Of a stretch of DNA of 64,000 nt, positions 14,394 to 54,600 are shown piece after piece. The stretch is from Cytophagales bacterium (GTDB lineage: Bacteria; Bacteroidota; Bacteroidia; Cytophagales; Spirosomataceae): positions 1-64,000 of the forward strand of contig RDXN01000060.1 in the NCBI GenBank assembly GCA_004292855.1, in the 5' to 3' direction. Made by a program: the position numbers and the translations under genes. Under the pieces are notes generated by a model. The model was not told the origin of the DNA and made no database searches. It worked only from the letters and a program-made list of their open reading frames with translations. Numbering within the stretch: position 1 is the first letter of the stretch; the number at the start of each line of letters is the position of its first letter.

Positions 14394-17300
14394 ATGGACA
14401 AGAACTACAGTTTTTTGGGTCGTTTATTAGCGCATTTCGGGTCAGTTTCTACAGGCTGTTTGTTGTTGCTAATGACTTTATTTTCATTTTCAGCACAAGC
14501 GCAAATTACTGGGAAAGTATACCGGGATTTTAATGCCAACGGCACGCAGGATACGCCCATTTCCTCGACGGCTTCGGCCACGGGCGAACCGGGTTTTCCG
14601 GGCATTGTGGTTATGGCCTACCCCGCAACAGGCAGTCCGGTTTCTGTGACGACCGGGATCGATGGGAGTTACAGTTTCCCGAATTCGGGCGCGACCGCGT
14701 CGGGAGCCAAACTTCGGCTCGAATTTTCGGGCTTACCGTCGGGCGTATATAGTGCCGCTTATGGCACCGCTACCACGGGTAGCGGCACCTCGGTGCAGTT
14801 TGTTACGGCAGGCGGCACGGCAGTAGCCAACTACGGCATTCATTATCCTGGTGAATATTGCGATAGCAGCCCTCAATTGGCTACGCCTTGTTTTGTGAGT
14901 GGAACACAGTCGGCAGCGAGTGTTGCCAATGAACACGTGCTTGTCACGTTTCCCTACTCTGCACAAAGTACTAACAGTGGTACACTGGCCAACCCTGTTG
15001 CTTCGAACACCGTGAACCCTACCCCCATTGCCGATGCCGGCCATGTGGGTAGTGTGTGGGGAATGGCCTATCAGCGCGAAAGCAACAAACTCTTCACGAC
15101 GGCCCTTCTTAAACGCCACGTGGGCCTGGGATCGGGTGGTTTGGGCGGTATCTACTCGACCTCAAACGCGACCGGGAGTACAGTCAACGGTTCGCTTTAC
15201 GTGGATCTTGAAGCGGCTCCTTTCTCACTGGATTTAGGGCAAAGTTTGTTGGGGACGCGCACGTTGCCCGCTACGCCAACCGCGAGCAGCACCGATCCTA
15301 ACGCGTTCAGTTTAATTGGAGTGGTTGGTTTGGGTGGCCTGGCTATTTCGGACGATGGTACCAAACTCTATACCGTTGACCTGTACAACAAAAAACTGCT
15401 GATTCTGAACATTGGAACCCCCGCCAAGGCATCGCCGTCGGCAGACGATTTAACGCAGGTGCTCATCCCGACACCGAGTTGCACCAACGGCGTTGCTCGC
15501 CCGTTTGGGGTGTCGGTGTATCACGAGAAAGTGTATGTAGGCGTGGTATGTACGGCTGAAAGTGCTAGCGGTGTGGCCGCGAACCTAACCATGAGTGTGT
15601 TCGAGATGGACGGGGCCACGCAGACCTTCAACCCCACGGCGGTTCTGAATGCCCCTCTCAATTACCCCAAAGGCTATGTACACGCCCAGCAGATCGCTTT
15701 GGGCGACCGTTGGGAACCCTGGACATCGTCGTTCAGTACGATGAACACAACCCAATTAACGGCTAGTCCTCTCGTCTTCCGCACGGCGCAACCGCAACCT
15801 ATTTTATCAGATATTGATTTTACCGACAACGGCGACATGGTTCTTACGTTGATGGACCGGGCGGGTCATCAATTAGGCTACCGGCAGGCGTCGCCCGCTG
15901 GTGGTACTACGCTCTACAGCGGCTATATTGGTGGTGACCTGCTCCGCGCCCGTAAGCAGGGGACTACATGGGTGCTGGAATCGGCTGGCAGGGTTAGTTC
16001 GTCTACCTCTGGAACGCTTACTGGCGGGTCTACAAACAACGCGCAGGGACCGGGCAGCGGTGAGTTCTACAGCAATGATAATTATGTAGGAGATAATGAT
16101 GCTAATGGTGTTGCCGATGAAATTCACCAGGAAACCTCGCAGGGTGGATCGGTGATTGTTCGGGGTACAAACCAGACTGTTACTATTCACATGGACCCAA
16201 TGGCTACGTGGTCGGGCGGGACCATCTGGCACAATAACACAACCGGTTTGCGCTCGAAGGTATACCAACTCTACCGCACCATTGATAACTCGGGTTCGCA
16301 GGTGAACGGTACTTACGGCAAAGCCAACGGCCTCGGCCTGCCGGTTGCCTTGTGCGACCCGGCTCCGGTCGAAATTGGCAACCGGATTTGGTTAGATACT
16401 AACAAAGATGGTATTCAAGACCCCGCTGAAACGCCCATCGCGAGTGTGTCGGTAGGGTTGTATAACAGCGGAACGCTGGTGGCCACGGCTGTCACGAACG
16501 CAAAGGGCGAGTATTACTTCTCGTCGGCACCGGGTACGAGTTCAACTGCTGTTCGCTATAATTTAGCCTTGATTCGGGGCGGGGCGTATGAGTTACGGAT
16601 TTTGAGAACACAACCCGCGCTGGCCAACTTTGAAACGCTTTCGCCAACCGATGCCAACACCAATGGCACCGATGCCATCGACAATGACTTTGCCTTGTCG
16701 GGCAGTAACCTTGTCACATCGCTCACAGTGGGCATGTCGGGCAATAACCTGCACTTATTTGATGCAGGTGTGACCCCGGTTCCACCCTGTTCGCTCACGT
16801 TGGCAGCTCTGCCGGGAGCCTGCGACCCGTTAACCAACACGTACGCTCTGTCGGGAACGATCACGCTGACAAGTAACAATACGGCTGGTACGGCAACCGT
16901 TACCGACGGTGCCCGCAGCACAACCGTTTCGGTGCCATCGGGTGCCACGTCGGTCGTTTGGTCGTTAACGGGTTTTGCTTCTAACGGAGCCAACCATACG
17001 GCCATCGTGACGCTGACAAACTGCGGCACGGCCAGCACAACCTATGCAGCTCCGGCTTCCTGCACGGCCTGCTCACTCAGTATCACCACAACGAGTTTGC
17101 CCGATGGTCAGGTAGGCGCGGTCTATTCACAAAGCATTGCCGCTACGGGTGGGACGGGTTCGCTTACCTACACCGTGAGTGGAGGCAGTTTGCCAACCGG
17201 GTTAAACCTGGGGGCCAGTACGGGCGTCATCGCAGGTACACCCACTGTAGCCGCTACGAGTTCGTTTGCCGTTAAAGTGACTGATACCAAAGGGTGTACG

Positions 17301-17879
17301 GCTGTAGTGCCGCTCACTATAATGACCTCGGCGTTGCCTGTTTGTTCGCTCACTCTCTCGGCGATTCCCGGCCCTTGCGTACCAGCTACAAACACATATG
17401 CGATTACTGGCACCATTAGCCTCACCAACAACACGGCGGGCGGTACGGCAATCATCACCGACGGAAGCGCGACAACAACCGTTGTTATTGCCCCCAACGC
17501 TACCTCGGCTAACTTCACCCTGTCGGGCCTTCTGTCGAACGGAACCACGCACCTCGTTTCGGTTAGCCTGACGGGTTGCGGAATAAGCAGCACGACCTAT
17601 TCGGCCCCTGTTTCGTGTTCGGCGGCTCCGCTGAAAGCTTCACTGGGCGACTACGTCTGGCTGGATACGAACAAGAACGGGCAACAAGACGGGGCAGAAT
17701 CCGGTGTACCAAGTGTGACGGTGGTCTTGTGTGATGCCACTTCTGGTTCGGCTATCTCAACGACGCTGACTGACTCACAAGGTAAGTATCTCTTCTCGAA
17801 CCTTGACCCCGGCAGCTACACGGTGAAGTTCACGGCTCCCGATGGGACGACCTTCACCACGCCCAACTCCGGCACCTAG
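14394..17879 (+). CDS. Giant SdrD-like repeat surface protein, 5' part (interrupted)
   Basis: The 1161-residue product starts with a signal peptide ending near SFSAQAQ, then an SdrD B-like module (GKVYRDFNANGTQD). A central region of about 550 residues follows and resembles a beta-propeller (VWGMAYQRESNKLFTT, LGGLAISDDGTKLYTVDL). Next come a second SdrD module (IGNRIWLDTNKDGIQD), two Cys-containing Ig-like modules, a putative-Ig domain (about 910-985) and a third SdrD module. The frame ends in a TAG at 17877-17879, created by a 23-base deletion relative to the next repeat copy. It should be read with the 18150-20735 part as one surface adhesin of about 2,100 residues. SdrD modules are Ca-binding spacers in Gram-positive adhesins; here the role is inferred. 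Confidence 0.85.
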   Translation: MDKNYSFLGRLLAHFGSVSTGCLLLLMTLFSFSAQAQITGKVYRDFNANGTQDTPISSTASATGEPGFPGIVVMAYPATGSPVSVTTGIDGSYSFPNSGATASGAKLRLEFSGLPSGVYSAAYGTATTGSGTSVQFVTAGGTAVANYGIHYPGEYCDSSPQLATPCFVSGTQSAASVANEHVLVTFPYSAQSTNSGTLANPVASNTVNPTPIADAGHVGSVWGMAYQRESNKLFTTALLKRHVGLGSGGLGGIYSTSNATGSTVNGSLYVDLEAAPFSLDLGQSLLGTRTLPATPTASSTDPNAFSLIGVVGLGGLAISDDGTKLYTVDLYNKKLLILNIGTPAKASPSADDLTQVLIPTPSCTNGVARPFGVSVYHEKVYVGVVCTAESASGVAANLTMSVFEMDGATQTFNPTAVLNAPLNYPKGYVHAQQIALGDRWEPWTSSFSTMNTTQLTASPLVFRTAQPQPILSDIDFTDNGDMVLTLMDRAGHQLGYRQASPAGGTTLYSGYIGGDLLRARKQGTTWVLESAGRVSSSTSGTLTGGSTNNAQGPGSGEFYSNDNYVGDNDANGVADEIHQETSQGGSVIVRGTNQTVTIHMDPMATWSGGTIWHNNTTGLRSKVYQLYRTIDNSGSQVNGTYGKANGLGLPVALCDPAPVEIGNRIWLDTNKDGIQDPAETPIASVSVGLYNSGTLVATAVTNAKGEYYFSSAPGTSSTAVRYNLALIRGGAYELRILRTQPALANFETLSPTDANTNGTDAIDNDFALSGSNLVTSLTVGMSGNNLHLFDAGVTPVPPCSLTLAALPGACDPLTNTYALSGTITLTSNNTAGTATVTDGARSTTVSVPSGATSVVWSLTGFASNGANHTAIVTLTNCGTASTTYAAPASCTACSLSITTTSLPDGQVGAVYSQSIAATGGTGSLTYTVSGGSLPTGLNLGASTGVIAGTPTVAATSSFAVKVTDTKGCTAVVPLTIMTSALPVCSLTLSAIPGPCVPATNTYAITGTISLTNNTAGGTAIITDGSATTTVVIAPNATSANFTLSGLLSNGTTHLVSVSLTGCGISSTTYSAPVSCSAAPLKASLGDYVWLDTNKNGQQDGAESGVPSVTVVLCDATSGSAISTTLTDSQGKYLFSNLDPGSYTVKFTAPDGTTFTTPNSGT

Positions 17880-19160
17880 TTTGACAGGCCAGAAAGGCAG
17901 CACAGGCGTATACTCACTCTCAGCCGGTGAGCAGAACCTGACCGTTGACGCGGGCTTGGTGCCGACCTCGGCCAGCCTGGGCGACAAAGTGTTTGTCGAT
18001 AACAACAAGAACGGCATTCAGGATGCGGGCGATACGCCACTGGCAGGCGTAACGGTCACGTTGATTAGCAACGGGACGCGGCTACCACGCCGAATTCCGG
18101 CACCAACGATGCAGCCGATTCAGACCCTGTTAACGGCATCACGGCTCCCGTGACGCTGACGGCGGGTGAGAACAACCCAACGTTGGACGCGGGCTTCATT
18201 CCGCTGAAAGCTTCGTTAGGTGATTATGTCTGGCTGGATACGAATAAGGATGGTCAGCAGGCTGGCGAGTCAGGCGTACAAAACGTAACGGTGGTCTTGT
18301 GTGATGCCACTTCTGGTTCGGCTATCTCAACGACGCTGACTGACTCACAAGGTAAGTATCTCTTCTCGAACCTTGACCCCGGCACGTACACGGTGAAGTT
18401 CACGGCTCCCGATGGGACGACCTTCACCACGCCCAACTCCGGCACTGATGCTACTGACTCTGACGTGGCTAGTTTGACGGGTCAGGAGCAGAACCTGACC
18501 GTTGACGCGGGCTTGGTGCCGACCTCGGCCAGTTTAGGCGACAAAGTGTTTGTCGATAACAACAAGAACGGCATTCAGGATGCGGGCGATACGCCACTGG
18601 CAGGCGTAACGGTCACGTTGATTAGCAACGGGACGCCTTACTCAGTGAGCTTTACCACACCCCCGAACCACACGGCTACCACGCCGAACTCCGGCACGAA
18701 TGACGCGGCTGATTCGGACCCCGTCAATGGCATCACGGCTCCCGTGACGCTGACGGCGGGTGAGAACAACCCAACGTTGGACGCAGGTTTCATCCCGCTG
18801 AAAGCTTCACTGGGCGACTACGTCTGGCTGGATACGAACAAGAACGGGCAACAAGACGGGGCAGAATCCGGTGTACAAAACGTAACGGTGGTCTTGTGTG
18901 GTGCCACTTCTGGGTCGGCTATTAGCACCACGCTGACTGACTCGCAAGGCAAGTACCTGTTCTCGAATCTCGATCCGGGCAGCTACACCGTGAAGTTCAC
19001 GGCTCCCGATGGGACCACCTTTACCACGCCGAACTCGGGCTCCGATGCAACGGATAGCGATGTAGCCAGCTTGACGGGCCAGAAAGGCAGCACGGGTGTG
19101 TACTCGCTCTCGGCAGGTGAGCAAAACCTGACCGTCGATGCGGGTCTGGTGCCGACAACA
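17628..19160 (+). repeat. 633-bp tandem repeat of SdrD modules with indels
   Basis: Two near-identical units start at 17628 and 18201, and a third partial unit starts at 18795. Unit A is 573 bases and unit B is 594. Adding back the missing segments (23+37 in A, 36+3 in B) gives 633 bases, or 211 codons, for both. Each unit encodes two SdrD modules (SLGDYVWLDTNKNG and SLGDKVFVDNNKNG types). The third copy keeps only its first half before diverging. Confidence 0.9.
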
Positions 19161-20735
19161 ACACCGCTGGGCAGTATTGGTGATTTTGTTTGGAAAGATG
19201 CAAACAAGAATGGTATCCAGGACGATGGCCCCAACAGTGGAATGAGCAACGTGCGGGTGAATCTGTTACGCGAAACGACCCCCGGTCAGTTTACGGTGGT
19301 GGCGACAACAACAACCTCAACGTCGGGCTTGTACAGCTTTACGGGTCTGACTGCCGGGAACTACGTGGTGCGGGTCGATTTGACAACGGTGCCGTTCTAC
19401 TGTGAGCCGACTGCGCAAACCGTAGTCACGCCGAACGATGCGACCAACAGCAAGATCGACGCTAGCGGTACTACGCCTGTGATCGTGATTAACCCCGGCA
19501 ATCCCGCTCAAACCGACTACCCCAAAGCGGATGCCGGATTTAGTCCCGTACAGTTTGGTAGCATTGGCGACTACGTTTGGAAGGACACCAACAACGATGG
19601 CATCCAGAACGATGGGGCAACGGCTGTGGGTGGTGTAGGGTTGAAACTGCTCAACTCCGACGGATTCTACATTATTCGGGGTACGTTGAGCGGAGCGCAG
19701 GAAAACCCCGCCGTGACAACTAACGGCACCGGAATGGCCTATGCTGGCTTCAATCCAACTACGAACGAATTGTTGCTGGAGGTTGGCTTCAACGGTCTGT
19801 CGGGTAGTGTGACAATGGCGCACATCCATACGGGTGTGACCGGCACCAATGGCCCCGTAACGATTGATCTGGTGCCACAGGGCTTCCCCACGGGCGTTCA
19901 GGCGGGTAATTTTGCCGCCAGCCTTACCCTGACAGCCGCCCAGAAGACCCTGTTGATGAGCAATAAATTGTACGTGAACGTGCATACGAGTACCAATGGT
20001 GGGGGCGAGGTACGGGCGCAGTTAGTAGCCTGCGAGTTCACCAATTCGGCGGGGGCTTACCTGTTCGATAAACTACCGGAAGACACCTACAAAGTGGCTG
20101 TTGATACGCCAACGTTACCAACAACCTGTGTGGTAAGCTCGATGCAGAACAGCACGGCCGCCACCGAAGCAACCGATAGTGATTTTGACCCCGCAACGGG
20201 CCAAAGCGGGTTTGTGTCGATCATTCCGAGCGACCCCGATTACCGCGATATTCGCACCGTCGATTTGGCCCTGACTGGCCCAACGAAGGGAACGATTGGC
20301 GACATGGTCTGGAAAGATATCAACAACAACGGACAGTACGACGTCACCGAGTCTGGAGCTTCGGGTGTTCGGGTGCGGTTGCTCCAGGTAACGAGTCCGG
20401 TGGGTTCTACGGCGATTTCGACCTCGCTGGTTTCGTCGACCACAACCGGAACCGATGGCAAGTATGTCTTTAGCAGTGTACCCGCCGGTCGTTATGTATT
20501 GGAGGTTGATAAAACAACACTGCCTACCAACTGCACCATCTCGCCGAAGGTGCGACGCCCAGGCGTTCCCGATGCGCTCGACAGCGACGCTGATCCTGTA
20601 ACAGGCCAAACGCCCGTGTTTGAGATCAACCCCGCCGATCCGGCTACATTGAATAGGCTGACGCTCGACGTTGCGTTGATCAACCCCGATTGTCAACCGG
20701 TTTGCTTGCCAATAACGATTCAGCGGATACGCTAA
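18150..20735 (+). CDS. Giant SdrD-like repeat surface protein, 3' part with nested CHRD domain
   Basis: This is the continuation of the gene that starts at 14394, in the same frame. The frame is open and homologous to the intact repeats from about 18081; the GTG at 18150 is unlikely to be a real start. Six SdrD-type modules are seen (SLGDYVWLDTNKDG, SLGDKVFVDNNKNG, SLGDYVWLDTNKNG, SIGDFVWKDANKNG, SIGDYVWKDTNNDG, TIGDMVWKDINNNG). The fifth is split by a CHRD domain. The protein ends in a short Cys-containing tail (CQPVCLPITIQRIR) and not in a recognisable Por sorting domain. A strong terminator follows directly. Confidence 0.8.
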   Translation: MTLTAGENNPTLDAGFIPLKASLGDYVWLDTNKDGQQAGESGVQNVTVVLCDATSGSAISTTLTDSQGKYLFSNLDPGTYTVKFTAPDGTTFTTPNSGTDATDSDVASLTGQEQNLTVDAGLVPTSASLGDKVFVDNNKNGIQDAGDTPLAGVTVTLISNGTPYSVSFTTPPNHTATTPNSGTNDAADSDPVNGITAPVTLTAGENNPTLDAGFIPLKASLGDYVWLDTNKNGQQDGAESGVQNVTVVLCGATSGSAISTTLTDSQGKYLFSNLDPGSYTVKFTAPDGTTFTTPNSGSDATDSDVASLTGQKGSTGVYSLSAGEQNLTVDAGLVPTTTPLGSIGDFVWKDANKNGIQDDGPNSGMSNVRVNLLRETTPGQFTVVATTTTSTSGLYSFTGLTAGNYVVRVDLTTVPFYCEPTAQTVVTPNDATNSKIDASGTTPVIVINPGNPAQTDYPKADAGFSPVQFGSIGDYVWKDTNNDGIQNDGATAVGGVGLKLLNSDGFYIIRGTLSGAQENPAVTTNGTGMAYAGFNPTTNELLLEVGFNGLSGSVTMAHIHTGVTGTNGPVTIDLVPQGFPTGVQAGNFAASLTLTAAQKTLLMSNKLYVNVHTSTNGGGEVRAQLVACEFTNSAGAYLFDKLPEDTYKVAVDTPTLPTTCVVSSMQNSTAATEATDSDFDPATGQSGFVSIIPSDPDYRDIRTVDLALTGPTKGTIGDMVWKDINNNGQYDVTESGASGVRVRLLQVTSPVGSTAISTSLVSSTTTGTDGKYVFSSVPAGRYVLEVDKTTLPTNCTISPKVRRPGVPDALDSDADPVTGQTPVFEINPADPATLNRLTLDVALINPDCQPVCLPITIQRIR
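19667..20030 (+). other. CHRD domain inserted in an SdrD module
   Basis: The encoded segment runs from IIRGTLSGAQENPAV to GGGEVRAQL. It has the CHRD hallmarks: GAQENPAV at the start, a central MAHIHTG motif, and the C-terminal YVNVHTSTNGGGEVRAQL-type stretch. CHRD domains occur in chordin and in bacterial secreted proteins. Here it interrupts a beta-sandwich module, whose strands resume at FTNSAGAYLFDKLPEDTYKV. Confidence 0.8.
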
Positions 20736-28845: not shown

Positions 28846-29559
28846 ATGAAACAACACCGGGTTGTATTGGTCGAAGATAATCCCGACGACCAGGAGACAC
28901 TCCTTGCCTTTGTGGCGCGAACGCCTTTTCTGACGTTGGCTGGTTCATTCGACGGAGCCGTGGCGGCTTTGCCGTTTCTCACAACGCAATCCGTCGATCT
29001 GTTGCTGCTCGATCTGCACCTGCCGGGGCTGTCGGGGTTCGATCTGCTCCGCTCGTTGCCCAATCCACCCGCCGTTATCCTGACCACCTCGTCGCTGGCT
29101 GACTCGCTCGAAGCGTTCGACGTGGGTGTGGTCGATTATCTGGTGAAACCCATCCGCTACGAACGCTTTCTGCGGGCCGTGAGCCGGGTGTTGGCCCGCC
29201 AACCTGCGCCCGCTGCCCCGCCGGGCGACGTTCGGGCCACGCTGCTGCTCAAACAGGGGCGCGATTCGGTGGCCGTTCGGCCCGACGATATTGTGTTTGT
29301 AGAGGCTTCGGGGCCAAATTCACTCGTCTATCTGACCCACAACCGCAGTCTCATGGTGAGTCATTTGCTGACCGATTTGCTCGACCAATTACCGCCCACT
29401 CAGTTTGTCCGCGTACATCGGGCGTTTGCGGTGGCCCTGCCCCGAATCAGTACGATTTCAAACCGGCAACTGACAGTTGGCACCCGGTCGGTTCCCGTTG
29501 GCCGGGCCTATCACGACGATGTGTTTCGGTTGCTGAACGACCTGAAAAAGGGCGGGTAA
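28846..29559 (+). CDS. LytTR-family response regulator (first copy)
   Basis: The 237-residue protein has a receiver domain with acidic pocket E10-D11, phospho-acceptor D56 (LLLLDLHLPG) and K101 (LVKPIRYE), then a LytTR DNA-binding domain from about residue 135 (VFVEASGPNSLVYL, FVRVHRAFAV). The ATG at 28846 was chosen because family homology starts there; upstream codons run through intergenic sequence. It is a tandem paralogue of the next gene, and near-identical around VVDYLVKPIRYERF. LytTR regulators bind pairs of direct repeats about two helical turns apart. Such repeats follow this gene at 29561. Confidence 0.95.
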   Translation: MKQHRVVLVEDNPDDQETLLAFVARTPFLTLAGSFDGAVAALPFLTTQSVDLLLLDLHLPGLSGFDLLRSLPNPPAVILTTSSLADSLEAFDVGVVDYLVKPIRYERFLRAVSRVLARQPAPAAPPGDVRATLLLKQGRDSVAVRPDDIVFVEASGPNSLVYLTHNRSLMVSHLLTDLLDQLPPTQFVRVHRAFAVALPRISTISNRQLTVGTRSVPVGRAYHDDVFRLLNDLKKGG

Positions 29560-31498: not shown

Positions 31499-31594
31499 TA
31501 GTATTTTTTACAAAACAGCTATTTTCTTTGGGGTTTCAAACAAACCGTTTTTCTCCTGTTAACAACCAATTAACCGATTTCCAATTTGCCCAGT

Positions 31595-34500
31595 ATGTAC
31601 CCTCTCTCTTCATTCAGTTCTCTCCCGGTGTCTCATAGGCAGACACCCGCCGGGCCGCCGTGCGTGGTCCCCGCTCCTGTTTCATCCGGGCCACGCTTGG
31701 CCGCGCCCACCGAGGCCGGGTTCCCGATCCCCCTCCGGTTGGGGTGGGTTGTCTTGTTGTTGTGTTGGCTGGGCAGTTTGCCCGGCATGGCCCAGACCGT
31801 GCGAACCTTCAACTACACGGGCGATGTGCAAACCTTTGTGGTTCCGGCGGGCGTAACCACGCTGAGTGTGGTAGCCAATGGCGCGCAGGGGCATAGTGAT
31901 GGTGGTAGTGGTGGCTTAGGCGGCCAGGTGACCGCTACGTTGGCCGTTACGCCTAGACAGTCATTAAGTATTTATGTGGGTGGCAGCCTGGGGTTCAACG
32001 GTGGCGGTGGCGGTGTCAATACGGGTGGTGGTGCCACCGATATTCGTATTGGTGGTTCACAGAATAGCAATCGGGTAGTGGTTGCTGGTGGTGGTGGCGG
32101 TAACGGGTATGGTGGTGGCGGTGGGGCCGGCGGTAGCGGTGGGGCTGGTGGTGGCCTTACTGGCGGGAGCGGTGGAGACGGAGCCAATGGCATTAACAAA
32201 GGTGGTGCTGGCGGTACCGGGAATGGTGGTGGTACTGGAGGCACTGGTAATAGTGCTGGTGGTGCTGGTATCAGTGGTGAGGGTGGTGGCGGTGGTAGTG
32301 GTTATTATAACGCTGGTGGTGGTGGTGGTGGTTACTTTGGTGGCGGTGGCGGTGCGGCTTCTTCCGCCAGAGATAATGGTGGTCCTGGCGGGGGTGGGGG
32401 TGGCTCGTCCTACACCAGCCCGTCTATTACCAGTTTCTCGCACACTCAGGGAGCCAACACGGGCGATGGTAGTTTGACCCTAAGCTACGTGATTCCTCCC
32501 CCTCCCCCCACCCGGCTTTACGTCAACGCTGCGGCCACAGCTCCCGGCGATGGCCTAAGCTGGGCCACAGCCTTCCCCGATCTGCAACAAGCCCTGACCT
32601 ACACCAACGTCAGCAGCCTGACGGCCATCTGGGTAGCTGGGGGCGTGTACAAACCTACGAGCGGTAGTGACCGCACCATCAGCTTTGCCATGCTGCCGGG
32701 CGTAGCCATCTACGGCGGCTTTGCCGGGACGGAAACCAGCCTGAGTAGTCGTACATTGACCTACCCCAGCAGCAGCACGCTCAGTGGCGATATTGGCGGG
32801 GCCGGAAACGGCGATAATAGCTACAATGTGATTGAAAACCCGACGGGTCTGGGTCTGACCACAACGGCCATTCTCGATGGGTTTGTGATCACGGGTGGGA
32901 ATGCCAATGGGAATGGGAATGGCCCTGATGGTCAAGGGGGTGGAATGTATAACAATGGCAGCAGCCCAACCGTTCGCAACTGTCTGTTTCAGGGTAATTC
33001 AGCGAGTCAGTACGGCGGGGCTATGTACAACGTAAGTAGCAGTAACCCGGTATTGACCAATTGCGCGTTTATAGCTAATTCGGCGACTGACGGCGGTGGG
33101 GGGATATACAACCAGGGCACTAGTCCGGTGCTGACCAACTGCTCGTTTCAGGGTAATACGTCTTCTAATCAACCTGGTCAAGCCTTAGGCCAAGCGTATG
33201 GCGGCAACTCGGTTCTAACCAACTGCGTTTTCTTTGACAATGGTGGCGACCGAACGTTTACAAGGAATGCTTTTGGTGACATCGCAGTCAGCTACAGTTT
33301 GTTCGACCAGGCCGCCTACAGTCCGTTCGCTCTATCATATGGAGGCTTTGTCGGAAGTCCAACCAACCTGACAACCTCAGTCTCACCCTTCGTAGATGCT
33401 ACCTCGGTGGCGTTAAGCAACTGTTCACCAGCTATCAACGCGGGGGATAATGCGGCCTACACCACAGCCAACGGCCCGGCAACGGATTTGGCAGGCCAAC
33501 CCCGGCTCTTCGCGGGTGGGCAAGTAGACATGGGGGCATTGGAATTGCAATCACCGCCGGTTTCGGTGAGCATTGCGGCCACCCCCTCGCTCACCATCAC
33601 GGTCAGCACCATCAGCGCGACCCTCACCGCGTCGGGAGCGAGTAGCTACACCTGGTCGACAGGGCAAAGCACATCGGCTATCTCGGCCAGCATCGCCGGG
33701 ACCTATTCCGTTACCGGAACAACCAGCAATGGCTGCTCGGCAACGGCTTCGGCCATTCTGAGTACAACGGGTACGCCCGTCAACGCGGTCAGCGCGTTGG
33801 TGGTGGGCACGTTCGCAGCCCCTGCCAATTGCATGGTCCGGGTGGCCTTCGTGGGGTCGGGACGGCAGTTTTTGCTTACCGGGCCGGGTGGCTATTCGGC
33901 AGTAGCTACTTACCGTAGCCCCATTACCAACCGCAACATCGAACTGGTCGGAATTTCGCAGCCCGGCGTGTACACTCTCGTAGCCAGTGGTGTAGCGGGT
34001 CAGCTAACCTCCACTACGTTTATCACCGTAACGGGTACGCCCTGTCAGGCGGGCACCTTTGGGGTAGCCCCCAACGCCCGCCCCGACAGCCGGCAGGCAC
34101 GTCTGGCTGCGGGGCTGACAGTTACCCTCGACCCGGTGGCCAGCGTCTATGGCACCAATCGACGGGTACGGGCCACCATCACAGGCGGCACCCCTGGCAC
34201 ACTGTATTCAGTAGCCTTGTATGACGGCGACCCGGCCACGGCCAACGACATTTCGTCGGGTTTTATCAGTACCAGCACCAGCGCGGGGTCGGGCAACATT
34301 CTGACGTATACGGGCACTGGCACCGAATTTTTCGAGGTAAACTTTGGGGTAAGCCAAGTCGGTACGGGCCGGGTGCTGGAGGTGTACGACATCAACGGCA
34401 ATTTTGCAACGGGTACGTTTGCCGATACGGCCCCCTTCGAGATTCAGGATTGCACGCCAGTGTCGGTGAGTATTGCGGCCGCGCCTTCTGCTACGATTTG

Positions 34501-37500
34501 CGCAGGTAGCAGTGCCACCCTGACGGCATCGGGAGCCGACAGCTACGCCTGGTCGAACAGCCAAAGCACGACGGCCATTACCGTTAGCGCGGCAGGGGTT
34601 TATTCGGTTACGGGCACCACGGGCGCGTGTTCGTCGGCAACGAGCGTAACGGTGGCGGCCAATCCGGCCCCGACTACTCTCTACGTGAACGCTGCGGCAA
34701 CAGGAGCCAACACGGGCCTCAACTGGACCGATGCCTTCACCGATCTGCAAAGCGTACTGACCAACCCCTGCGTGAGCAGCCTGACGGCTATCTGGGTGGC
34801 CCAGGGTACCTACAAGCCCACCGGCACAGCCGCCCGTACAGAGAGTTTTCGAATGTTGCCCAACGTGGCCGTATATGGCGGGTTCCCCAACACGGGCAAC
34901 CCGGCCTTTGGGGATCGTAATCCGGCCAGCTTCTCCACCATTCTGAGTGGCGACATTGGCACAGCAGGAAGCATCAGCGACAACAGCTATCACGTGGTGG
35001 TCTATGGCTCTGGCGTAGGTACGCCCATTCTGGATGGCGTAATCATCACGGGGGGCAATGCGAATGGAAGTTCTCCAAATAATTTGGGTGGGGGAATGCT
35101 CATCCGAACCAACAATGGCCCCAGCAGCCCCCGCTTAAACCAGGTGACAATTACCCAAAACTCGGGTCAAAATAATGGGGGAATTGCGGTGTATGCTAAC
35201 GGGGCGGCCCCAACGAATGTTGCCAGCCCAACCCTCACTAACTGCGTCATTGCCAGCAATACATCAACCTCTAGTGAAGGTGGAGGCATCAGCCTGGAAG
35301 ACGATGGCAATGCTATTGTTGGTATGACCCTTACGTCCTGCACATTAGTTGGTAATATAGCGCAGGGAGATGATGCCGGTGCGCTCTTTTTCGATGTCCA
35401 TGGACAGGTGGTGATCCACAATAGTTTGTTCGAAAATAACTATTCCGACGACGAGGGCGGGGCTATTTTTGCCTATGCTGGTTCCTTCACCATTACGAAC
35501 AGCCAATTTTTACGCAACACTGCCGACTACGGAGGGGGCGCACTATTTACGGAGAGTGATCAGTATGGGCTGATCGACAACTGTTTGTTCGATGGCAACA
35601 GCGTACCGAACAGCAGAAACGCAGGAGCCATTCTGTATGATGGTGATGATGATTATGGGTTCGATTTGCGTAACTCCGTGTTTCAGAACAACACGGCTGG
35701 GACTGGCGGAGCACTCTACGTGGATGACAGGGGCCTGAAAACAACCAACTGTCTGTTTATCAACAACACGGCTACCAACCGGGGCGGAGGCATTTATGCA
35801 GCGAGTGCGTCTTCTTTTATCAATTCGGTGTTTACGGGTAACCGCGCATCATCGGGCGGGGGTCTCTACATCAACTCCTCGCTCACAATGGTCAACAGCA
35901 CCGTGGCCAGTAATTCGGCTACGGGTGTTCAGGGGGGTGGTATCTATGCAACCTCAGACGTGTCGCTCATTAACGCCATTATCTGGGGCAACACGACAAC
36001 AGGTACGGCTACGGACGCGCAACTGTTCCGGTCAGGCGGTACCACCTCTATCCAGAATTCATTGATTCAGGAGGGGCTACCCACGGGGGCAACCGACGGG
36101 GGCGGAAACTTGCTGGCTGTCACGGTGTCGCCGTTTGTGAGTGCTACCAACCTGCAACTCAATGCCTGCACCCCCGCCATCGACGCAGGCGACAATGCGG
36201 CTTACGCGTCGGCGGGGGGCAGCACCTCCGATGTCGCCGGGAATGCCCGCACAGTCAACGCCCTTATCGACATGGGTGCCTATGAGTTTTCGGGGACGGC
36301 TAGTCAGCCAGTGGGCATCACGGCGCAACCTGTGGCTTCGTCGGTGGCTTGCTCAGGTACCGCCGTTACGGCCACGGTCAGCGTCACGGGTTCGGGGGCC
36401 ATCACTTACCAGTGGTTCCGGGGAACAACACCCGTTGCGAGCCAGACCACGGCTACACTTTCGCTAACGAACGTACAATCGAGCGATGCCGGGAGTTATT
36501 CGGTGGTGGTGACGGGGGCCTGCGGGAGCGTGACCAGCACCGCGTTTAGCCTGACGGTCAATCAGTCTATCGGCGTTACACAACAGCCTGCCGCCACCTC
36601 GGTGGTCTGTACGGGGGCCAGCGTCACGGTCTTCATCAGTGCCACGGGCGATATTTCGGGCTACCAGTGGTTCAAAGGCACCACCGCCCTCACGGGCCAA
36701 ACCTCGGCCACGCTTACCTTGAGCGGATTGCAACCGGGCGATACCGACGGATACACGGCGATGGTTCTCAGCACCAGTTGCGGCATTGTGCTGTCGAACG
36801 TGTTCAACCTGACCGTGCAACAGAACGTGGGTATTACCATGCAGCCAGCCACCGGAACGCTTGTCTGTTCGGGGGCAACCGTTACGGCCACCGTTAGCGC
36901 GAGCGGCACGGGGCCACTTGCCTACGAGTGGATCAAAGGGCAAACCCTGATTCCGGGCCAAACCACGGCCACCCTCACCCTTACTAACGTTCAGCAAGCC
37001 ACCGATGCCGACGATTACCGGGTGCGGGTCTTTACCGGGTGCAACAACGTACTGTCTGACCCATTTGGGTTGAGCATCAATCAGGCCGTAGCCATCACGG
37101 CGCAACCGGCGGCTTCCTCGGTGGTGTGTGTGGGGAGTGATGTGACGGCCACGGTGAGCTTCTCCGGCAGTGGGCCGTTTACCTTTGAATGGTACAAGGG
37201 GGCCACCCGCGTTGCCAGCCAGACCACGGCCACCCTCTCGCTGACCAACGTACAAACGAGCGACGCGGGCAGCTACTCAGTGCGGGTTATCACGCCCTGC
37301 AACACGGTGTCGTCCACAGCCTTCAGCCTGACGGTTCAGCAACCCGTTACCACGGCCAGCCTGTTGAGCAGCGGCACGCTCACCTGTGGCAATCCGAGCG
37401 TGACGCTTACGACCACAGCCGCCAACGCCACTAACTTTACGTTGGTCAACACGGGGGACAGCAACGGCACGGGCCAGTTTGTGGTGGCCGCCCCCGGCTC

Positions 37501-38362
37501 CTACACCGTCCGGGCGGGAGCCATGACCTCCTGCACCAACACGGCTTTGGCCAGCGTGTCGGTAAGCCAGAACACGGCCATCGGCGCGGCCACCCTCACG
37601 GCCAGCAGCCCCGGCATCTGCCCCGGCGCAGGCAACAGCGTCACACTGACGGCAGGCACGGGCAGTACATACACCTTCCTCAACACGAGCGGAATGGTGT
37701 TGCAAACCGGGTCGGTGAACACCTACGCCATCAGCACGGCGGGCACCTACTCGGTGGTGGTTTCGGAACCCAACGGCTGCACGGCGGGGGCAGTGGTGAG
37801 CGTTTCGCTCAACCCCGGTGCAGTGGTGTTAGGGCCAGTCCCCATGGGCGGGGGCGTGTGCGAGGGCCGCGCCCTAAGTGTGCCTGTGTCTGTTACAGCC
37901 ACAGGCAACGTAAGCTTCCAGTGGTTGCGCAATGGTGTTGCTACGGGCCAGAACACGGCTACGCTCACCCTGGGTGCGGTAACGGCCAACGATGCGGGCA
38001 TTTATGTGCTGGTAGCCACAGGGGCCTGCAACAGCCAGACCAGCACGGCTTACCAGTTGAGCGTGGGTACGGTGACACCCTCGGTGGTGATCACCTTCCC
38101 CAGCGGCTCAAGCGTGACGGTATCGGGGTCATTGCCCACCATCACGGTGCCGTCGGTGGCGGGCGCGAACTTCCTCATCAGCGGGGGCGATTCGTATGAG
38201 CACACCCGGATTCTGGACCGTATCAACGGGTATGAGTTCCGGCAGTTCAACCAGAACACGTCGGGTCTGTTCCCCATCAACGGGGGTGGGCCTTACCGGA
38301 TACGGGTGGTTCGGAGTGGCTGCGACAAAACGGTGGAGGGCGTGATTGTGGTCAGGCCGTAA
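31595..38362 (+). CDS. Giant secreted protein: Gly-rich, beta-helix and Ig-like domains
   Basis: The 2255-residue product has an unusual N-terminus: about 47 residues precede the hydrophobic signal core (WVVLLLCWLGSLPGMAQ). A mature region of about 25 residues leads to a glycine-rich domain (about 95-290) with GGGATDIRIGG and RVVVAGGGGG motifs, like the glycine-rich domain of ALK-type receptors. Two right-handed beta-helix regions follow (about 310-640 and 1025-1560), each beginning LYVNAAATxxGxGLxWxxAFxDLQ and ending in DMGAxE. Then come at least five Ig-like modules (about 1565-1990, SDAGSYSVVV pattern) and two further Ig modules. The C-terminus (YRIRVVRSGCDKTVEGVIVVRP) is not a known sorting domain. 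The ATG at 31595 is preferred over a TTG nine bases earlier. It is most likely a cell-surface adhesin under LytTR control. Confidence 0.8.
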   Translation: MYPLSSFSSLPVSHRQTPAGPPCVVPAPVSSGPRLAAPTEAGFPIPLRLGWVVLLLCWLGSLPGMAQTVRTFNYTGDVQTFVVPAGVTTLSVVANGAQGHSDGGSGGLGGQVTATLAVTPRQSLSIYVGGSLGFNGGGGGVNTGGGATDIRIGGSQNSNRVVVAGGGGGNGYGGGGGAGGSGGAGGGLTGGSGGDGANGINKGGAGGTGNGGGTGGTGNSAGGAGISGEGGGGGSGYYNAGGGGGGYFGGGGGAASSARDNGGPGGGGGGSSYTSPSITSFSHTQGANTGDGSLTLSYVIPPPPPTRLYVNAAATAPGDGLSWATAFPDLQQALTYTNVSSLTAIWVAGGVYKPTSGSDRTISFAMLPGVAIYGGFAGTETSLSSRTLTYPSSSTLSGDIGGAGNGDNSYNVIENPTGLGLTTTAILDGFVITGGNANGNGNGPDGQGGGMYNNGSSPTVRNCLFQGNSASQYGGAMYNVSSSNPVLTNCAFIANSATDGGGGIYNQGTSPVLTNCSFQGNTSSNQPGQALGQAYGGNSVLTNCVFFDNGGDRTFTRNAFGDIAVSYSLFDQAAYSPFALSYGGFVGSPTNLTTSVSPFVDATSVALSNCSPAINAGDNAAYTTANGPATDLAGQPRLFAGGQVDMGALELQSPPVSVSIAATPSLTITVSTISATLTASGASSYTWSTGQSTSAISASIAGTYSVTGTTSNGCSATASAILSTTGTPVNAVSALVVGTFAAPANCMVRVAFVGSGRQFLLTGPGGYSAVATYRSPITNRNIELVGISQPGVYTLVASGVAGQLTSTTFITVTGTPCQAGTFGVAPNARPDSRQARLAAGLTVTLDPVASVYGTNRRVRATITGGTPGTLYSVALYDGDPATANDISSGFISTSTSAGSGNILTYTGTGTEFFEVNFGVSQVGTGRVLEVYDINGNFATGTFADTAPFEIQDCTPVSVSIAAAPSATICAGSSATLTASGADSYAWSNSQSTTAITVSAAGVYSVTGTTGACSSATSVTVAANPAPTTLYVNAAATGANTGLNWTDAFTDLQSVLTNPCVSSLTAIWVAQGTYKPTGTAARTESFRMLPNVAVYGGFPNTGNPAFGDRNPASFSTILSGDIGTAGSISDNSYHVVVYGSGVGTPILDGVIITGGNANGSSPNNLGGGMLIRTNNGPSSPRLNQVTITQNSGQNNGGIAVYANGAAPTNVASPTLTNCVIASNTSTSSEGGGISLEDDGNAIVGMTLTSCTLVGNIAQGDDAGALFFDVHGQVVIHNSLFENNYSDDEGGAIFAYAGSFTITNSQFLRNTADYGGGALFTESDQYGLIDNCLFDGNSVPNSRNAGAILYDGDDDYGFDLRNSVFQNNTAGTGGALYVDDRGLKTTNCLFINNTATNRGGGIYAASASSFINSVFTGNRASSGGGLYINSSLTMVNSTVASNSATGVQGGGIYATSDVSLINAIIWGNTTTGTATDAQLFRSGGTTSIQNSLIQEGLPTGATDGGGNLLAVTVSPFVSATNLQLNACTPAIDAGDNAAYASAGGSTSDVAGNARTVNALIDMGAYEFSGTASQPVGITAQPVASSVACSGTAVTATVSVTGSGAITYQWFRGTTPVASQTTATLSLTNVQSSDAGSYSVVVTGACGSVTSTAFSLTVNQSIGVTQQPAATSVVCTGASVTVFISATGDISGYQWFKGTTALTGQTSATLTLSGLQPGDTDGYTAMVLSTSCGIVLSNVFNLTVQQNVGITMQPATGTLVCSGATVTATVSASGTGPLAYEWIKGQTLIPGQTTATLTLTNVQQATDADDYRVRVFTGCNNVLSDPFGLSINQAVAITAQPAASSVVCVGSDVTATVSFSGSGPFTFEWYKGATRVASQTTATLSLTNVQTSDAGSYSVRVITPCNTVSSTAFSLTVQQPVTTASLLSSGTLTCGNPSVTLTTTAANATNFTLVNTGDSNGTGQFVVAAPGSYTVRAGAMTSCTNTALASVSVSQNTAIGAATLTASSPGICPGAGNSVTLTAGTGSTYTFLNTSGMVLQTGSVNTYAISTAGTYSVVVSEPNGCTAGAVVSVSLNPGAVVLGPVPMGGGVCEGRALSVPVSVTATGNVSFQWLRNGVATGQNTATLTLGAVTANDAGIYVLVATGACNSQTSTAYQLSVGTVTPSVVITFPSGSSVTVSGSLPTITVPSVAGANFLISGGDSYEHTRILDRINGYEFRQFNQNTSGLFPINGGGPYRIRVVRSGCDKTVEGVIVVRP

Positions 38363-54367: not shown

Positions 54368-54386
54368 GTTTAATTGGCTTTTAGCC

Positions 54387-54600
54387 GTTTCAATGCCTTT
54401 GGCGTTTCAATGGCTACGCCGTTTCAGGTTTCAATACCTACGGTGTTTCATTGAGCCATCGAAAGCGTTGAAACTGGGCGGGCCGTGTACATTGAGACGC
54501 GCACCGGCGGACTGGCGCAGCAGTGAAACTTGAAACGGCGTAGCCATTGAAACGCGCAGCAATGAAACCTGAAACGCCGTAGGCATTGAAACTTGAAACT
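54387..54600. repeat. Cluster of short palindromic repeats inside the ABC operon
   Basis: At least four copies of a unit with core GGCTACGCC or GCCTACGGC flanked by GTTTCA/TGAAAC alternate in direct and inverted order. The left group is 54387-54453 and the right group 54522-54600. They can fold into one large cruciform. The cluster sits between the ATPase and permease genes and stops 3 bases before the permease ATG, so it occupies the position of the ribosome-binding site. Confidence 0.8.

Follow-up and report, generated by a model that had tools for sequence, protein, structure and literature searches.

The closest described systems to the gene considered here are the SdrD_B surface proteins of the Spirosomataceae type, represented by Rudanella and Fibrella and by the open reading frames (ORFs) in L031, L032 and L033. 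With these the gene product shares a signal-like N-terminus, an N-terminal region (56–69% identity in tblastn), SdrD_B domains and a CVPIT-type C-terminus, and a CHRD-like stretch is also visible in the translations of L031 and L032. The gene differs in two respects: the single D1 of L031 corresponds here to a D1-D2-D1-D2-D1 array, and a TAG codon interrupts the gene in the assembly. The SdrD protein of Staphylococcus aureus has the B-like domain fold (Pfam PF17210) in common with the gene product, which comes from Bacteroidota and has a different N-terminus, and no staphylococcal architecture (SD repeat, LPXTG) is seen in the translation. The initial annotation of a "giant SdrD gene" is apt at the domain level (PF17210), but the gene is not a staphylococcal sdrD gene. 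A literature search on SdrD_B domains in Bacteroidetes returned no reports for the terms used.

A further point of comparison is the assembly of repeat-protein genes. De Bruijn assembly resolves repeats only if they are shorter than k, and short-read data misjudge repeat proteins (PMC6868369). Such errors, reviewed in PMC6868369, have in common with the gene described here that repeats within a gene are nearly identical and no shorter than the k-mer, and that losses are located exactly at repeat edges; the typical cases drop whole units, whereas here parts of domains are lost, out of register and out of frame.

The gene and its relatives

The gene, which encodes a secreted SdrD_B-repeat protein, lies at positions 14394–20735 on the forward strand of the window, i.e., the 64,000-nucleotide stretch of contig RDXN01000060.1 that was analysed. 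In the deposited sequence it consists of an ORF from the ATG at 14394 to an in-frame TAG at 17877–17879, followed by a second ORF in the same frame that ends at 20735 with the C-terminal sequence CLPITIQRIR. The score of PF17210 (SdrD_B) is 155.6 bits for the upstream part, over two stretches, and 482 bits for the downstream part, over eight, against a gathering cut-off of 29.7, which identifies the product as a family member; He_PIG (PF05345) is found in the upstream part and CHRD (PF07452) in the downstream part. Even with its D2 domains as assembled (see below), the gene as a whole is still a family member through its other SdrD_B domains.

The closest relatives of the N-terminal part identified by tblastn are from "Flavobacterium sp. 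SUN052" (69%), Fibrella aquatilis (66%) and Rudanella paleaurantiibacter (56%). The Rudanella ORF has 1583 codons, equal to the ORF in G001, a genome of the same genus as the window, which makes Rudanella or a near ally of it the probable host. Uninterrupted homologues are present in L031, L032, G001 and G002. The C-terminal sequence at 20735 closely resembles the CVPIT-type C-termini of intact relatives. Because the genes of the relatives are uninterrupted and the C-terminus is similar, the two ORFs are parts of one gene. Two separate genes were considered and rejected: the downstream ORF has its start within a domain, the gene is a single ORF in the relatives, and no promoter- or terminator-like site was scored near 17880–18150 by a scan whose models lie outside the promoters of Bacteroidota.

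The window also contains an intact ORF of 2258 residues at 31586–38362 with several Ig-like domains and a weak match to the CHU_C-associated Ig_7 domain, possibly another giant surface protein.

Repeat units, gaps and the stop codon

The central part of the gene is a tandem array of a two-domain unit (D1 + D2). Copy A (17628–18200, forward strand; D1A + D2A) begins with CCGCTG and is 573 bp long as assembled; copy B (18201–18794, forward strand; D1B + D2B) begins with the same hexamer and is 594 bp long, with a D1B of 101 residues and a D2B of 87 residues. They are followed by a half copy (18795–19160, forward strand), D1C, which is a normal SdrD_B domain of 114 residues. Exact matches of 100, 97 and 82 bp place the repeats far above chance.

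A gapped alignment of the three copies bears out the gaps that had been proposed in the initial annotation. In copy A they measure 23 bases, at 17875/17876, and 37, at about 18078/18079; in copy B they measure 3 bases, near 18265/18266, and 36, at 18485/18486. With these bases restored, both units reach 633 bp (573 + 60 for A, 594 + 39 for B), also as proposed. The TAG at 17877–17879, which arises at the 23-base junction, is indeed in frame with the ATG at 14394. The sequence is frame-shifted between the two gaps of copy A, and the original frame returns after the second one and stays open to the stop at 20735. The 3-bp difference in copy B was rejected as an error; it is a natural variant, since another contig of the same assembly, C61, carries the identical variant (QQAGESGV).

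A larger loss had been overlooked. Set against the intact D2 that the same genome carries on contig C50, D2A and D2B each lack a further 66 bp (22 residues), at about 18636/18637 in copy B. The loss in D2A amounts to 66 + 37 = 103 bp, i.e., 37 bp more than in D2B from an identical left breakpoint, and both gaps open at one base, the end of a 100-bp stretch that is identical in the two copies (17980–18079 in A and 18537–18636 in B, both on the forward strand). Judged from the alignment, the 633-bp unit is itself short, and a family-typical unit would measure about 699 bp. Used as a protein query, D2B matches its homologues only as two separate pieces, consistent with 22 missing residues.

The missing 66 bp encode the Y-x-F-xx-L-xx-G core of the domain, which is absent from D2A and D2B as assembled. 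This core is kept by all 39 of the 39 other distinct domains collected from this genome and its relatives, which range from 97 to 128 residues with a median of 114, and D1B and D1C are full length with the core present. All four domains of units A and B are short of sequence, each pair in one neighbourhood, and the rest of the sampled family is not.

Substitution pattern

In the frame-shifted middle of copy A, comparison with copy C in the domain frame gives 13 synonymous and no non-synonymous changes; in the other two frames, 12 of the 13 changes would be non-synonymous. Past the second gap, copies A and B differ by 12 synonymous and no non-synonymous changes. The 13:0 pattern implies that conservation of the frame ended only very recently, unless the frame is intact to this day. 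Relative to L031, pN is 0.182 in the downstream half and 0.193 in the N-terminal part, indicating about equal constraint. Neither the affected segments of copy A nor the downstream half bears the mark of relaxed selection after the lesion, a picture that a very young pseudogene would share.

Repeat blocks and contig ends

The assembly consists of 108 contigs. Among the 59 contig ends sampled, many share exact sequence with one another, mostly over 91–99 bp and never over more than 99 bp. Contigs built from a de Bruijn graph look like this when k is near 99, and we infer the approximate k from these overlaps. Within the window, no exact direct repeat other than the 100-bp block shared by copies A and B exceeds 99 bp; an identical block at or above the inferred k is thus present at the site of the presumed fault (100 bp against overlaps of at most 99 bp). 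Elsewhere in the window, a 42-bp exact direct repeat occurs at 29128 and 29958, near genes for a LytTR response regulator and a PD-(D/E)XK transposase-family protein, and many imperfect direct and inverted GTTTCAATGGCTACGCC-like motifs are found at 54384–54599, between genes for an ABC transporter ATPase and a MacB/FtsX permease.

Identical blocks between copies A and B span 47–100 bp. The 23-base gap of copy A is preceded by a near-identical A/B stretch (17718–17875, forward strand; exact matches of 97 and 59 bp with a 2-bp difference between them) that ends at the junction, and is followed by divergent sequence. The 36-base gap of copy B runs the opposite way, from divergent into near-identical sequence.

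Contig C61 (L055:1-480) carries another SdrD_B gene, with an out-of-frame deletion at the very point where an 88-bp exact block ends, and this block is the same as the first 88 bp of the contig end C50. The break in C61 is probably the same assembly fault as that in the present gene. At L135 (G001:C12:880000-892000), in a relative that is better assembled, an SdrD_B array contains a 1238-bp exact internal repeat. This repeat points to recent homogenisation of the units, and shows that long identical units are natural in the genus.

A search of the same assembly for a second allele or a stray repeat contig found none, the best other matches being 68–79% identical. Likewise, a search of 39 genomes and a scan of GTDB, the latter possibly omitting the species of the window itself, turned up neither a near-identical strain nor a second genome carrying this array.

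Origin of the interruption

The initial annotation had listed phase variation, decay and assembly error without ranking them. We consider short-read misassembly of near-identical SdrD_B repeats in an ordinary, intact gene to be the most likely explanation, with a probability of roughly 0.84. It is favored by the contig-end overlaps of at most 99 bp, the opening of the D2 gaps at the end of the 100-bp repeat, the break in C61 and the purely synonymous divergence. The coincidence of repeat edges with gaps carries little weight by itself, because any indel between two copies necessarily ends an exact block; the weight comes from the breakpoint shared by the two D2 domains, the change between near-identical and divergent sequence that falls at the junctions, the second contig with a fault and the pattern of selection. 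With k near 99, an assembler would have been unable to tell the A and B blocks apart, and wrong joining of paths or gaps may then have dropped 23 + 103 bases from copy A and 36 + 66 from copy B. In the real genome the frame would probably run uninterrupted between 14394 and 20735, and each domain would have close to 114 residues. Counting against misassembly, the classic collapse artefact is the loss of a whole unit; small out-of-register gaps that leave no Ns need faulty gap closure or a faulty path join, which we assume to have taken place.

Alternatively, the deletions could be real and very recent, leaving a young pseudogene that encodes a product truncated after residue 1161. The stop is, after all, present in the deposited sequence, the mosaic of identical and divergent A/B blocks is one that gene conversion could yield, and the repeats of such arrays are expected to undergo unequal exchange. 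This reading nevertheless calls for at least four separate losses in about 1 kb, of 23 and 103 bases from copy A and of 36 and 66 bases from copy B, with an identical left breakpoint for two of the four, or else for one shared 66-bp loss followed by a 37-bp loss that began precisely there. Homology at the junctions, where judgeable, amounts to only 0–1 bp, there is no other decay (no further in-frame stop occurs from the second gap to 20735), the divergence in the frame-shifted segment is purely synonymous, and the similar break in C61 also lies at the end of an exact block. Real deletion is accordingly unlikely in our view.

A reversible switch, in which repeat-mediated recombination toggles the gene by losing and regaining segments, might be suggested by the near-identical tandem units and by the two out-of-frame gaps in copy A that jointly restore the frame. 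The TAG survives the second gap, however, so that the protein is not rescued by the pair of gaps. None of the gaps corresponds to a whole unit, their junctions lack flanking direct repeats of useful length (0–1 bp where judgeable), and the frames of close relatives are uninterrupted; neither a simple-sequence tract nor a tandem repeat array was reported at the site, which therefore does not class as phase-variable. Phase variation is left without support, and we regard it as extremely improbable. Scarcely more credible is a combination of these ideas, in which real deletions at the borders of gene-conversion tracts would reflect recombination that repeatedly trims domains within giant SdrD_B genes out of register and so silences the surface protein in a fraction of the population.

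Implications

Misassembly would make this locus a clear example of a deposited repeat-gene "pseudogene" that the rest of its own assembly speaks against. Before an SdrD_B-type gene from a short-read assembly is called broken or phase-variable, the reads should be consulted. Had the break been true, it would have pointed to a mechanism by which Bacteroidota switch giant surface proteins.
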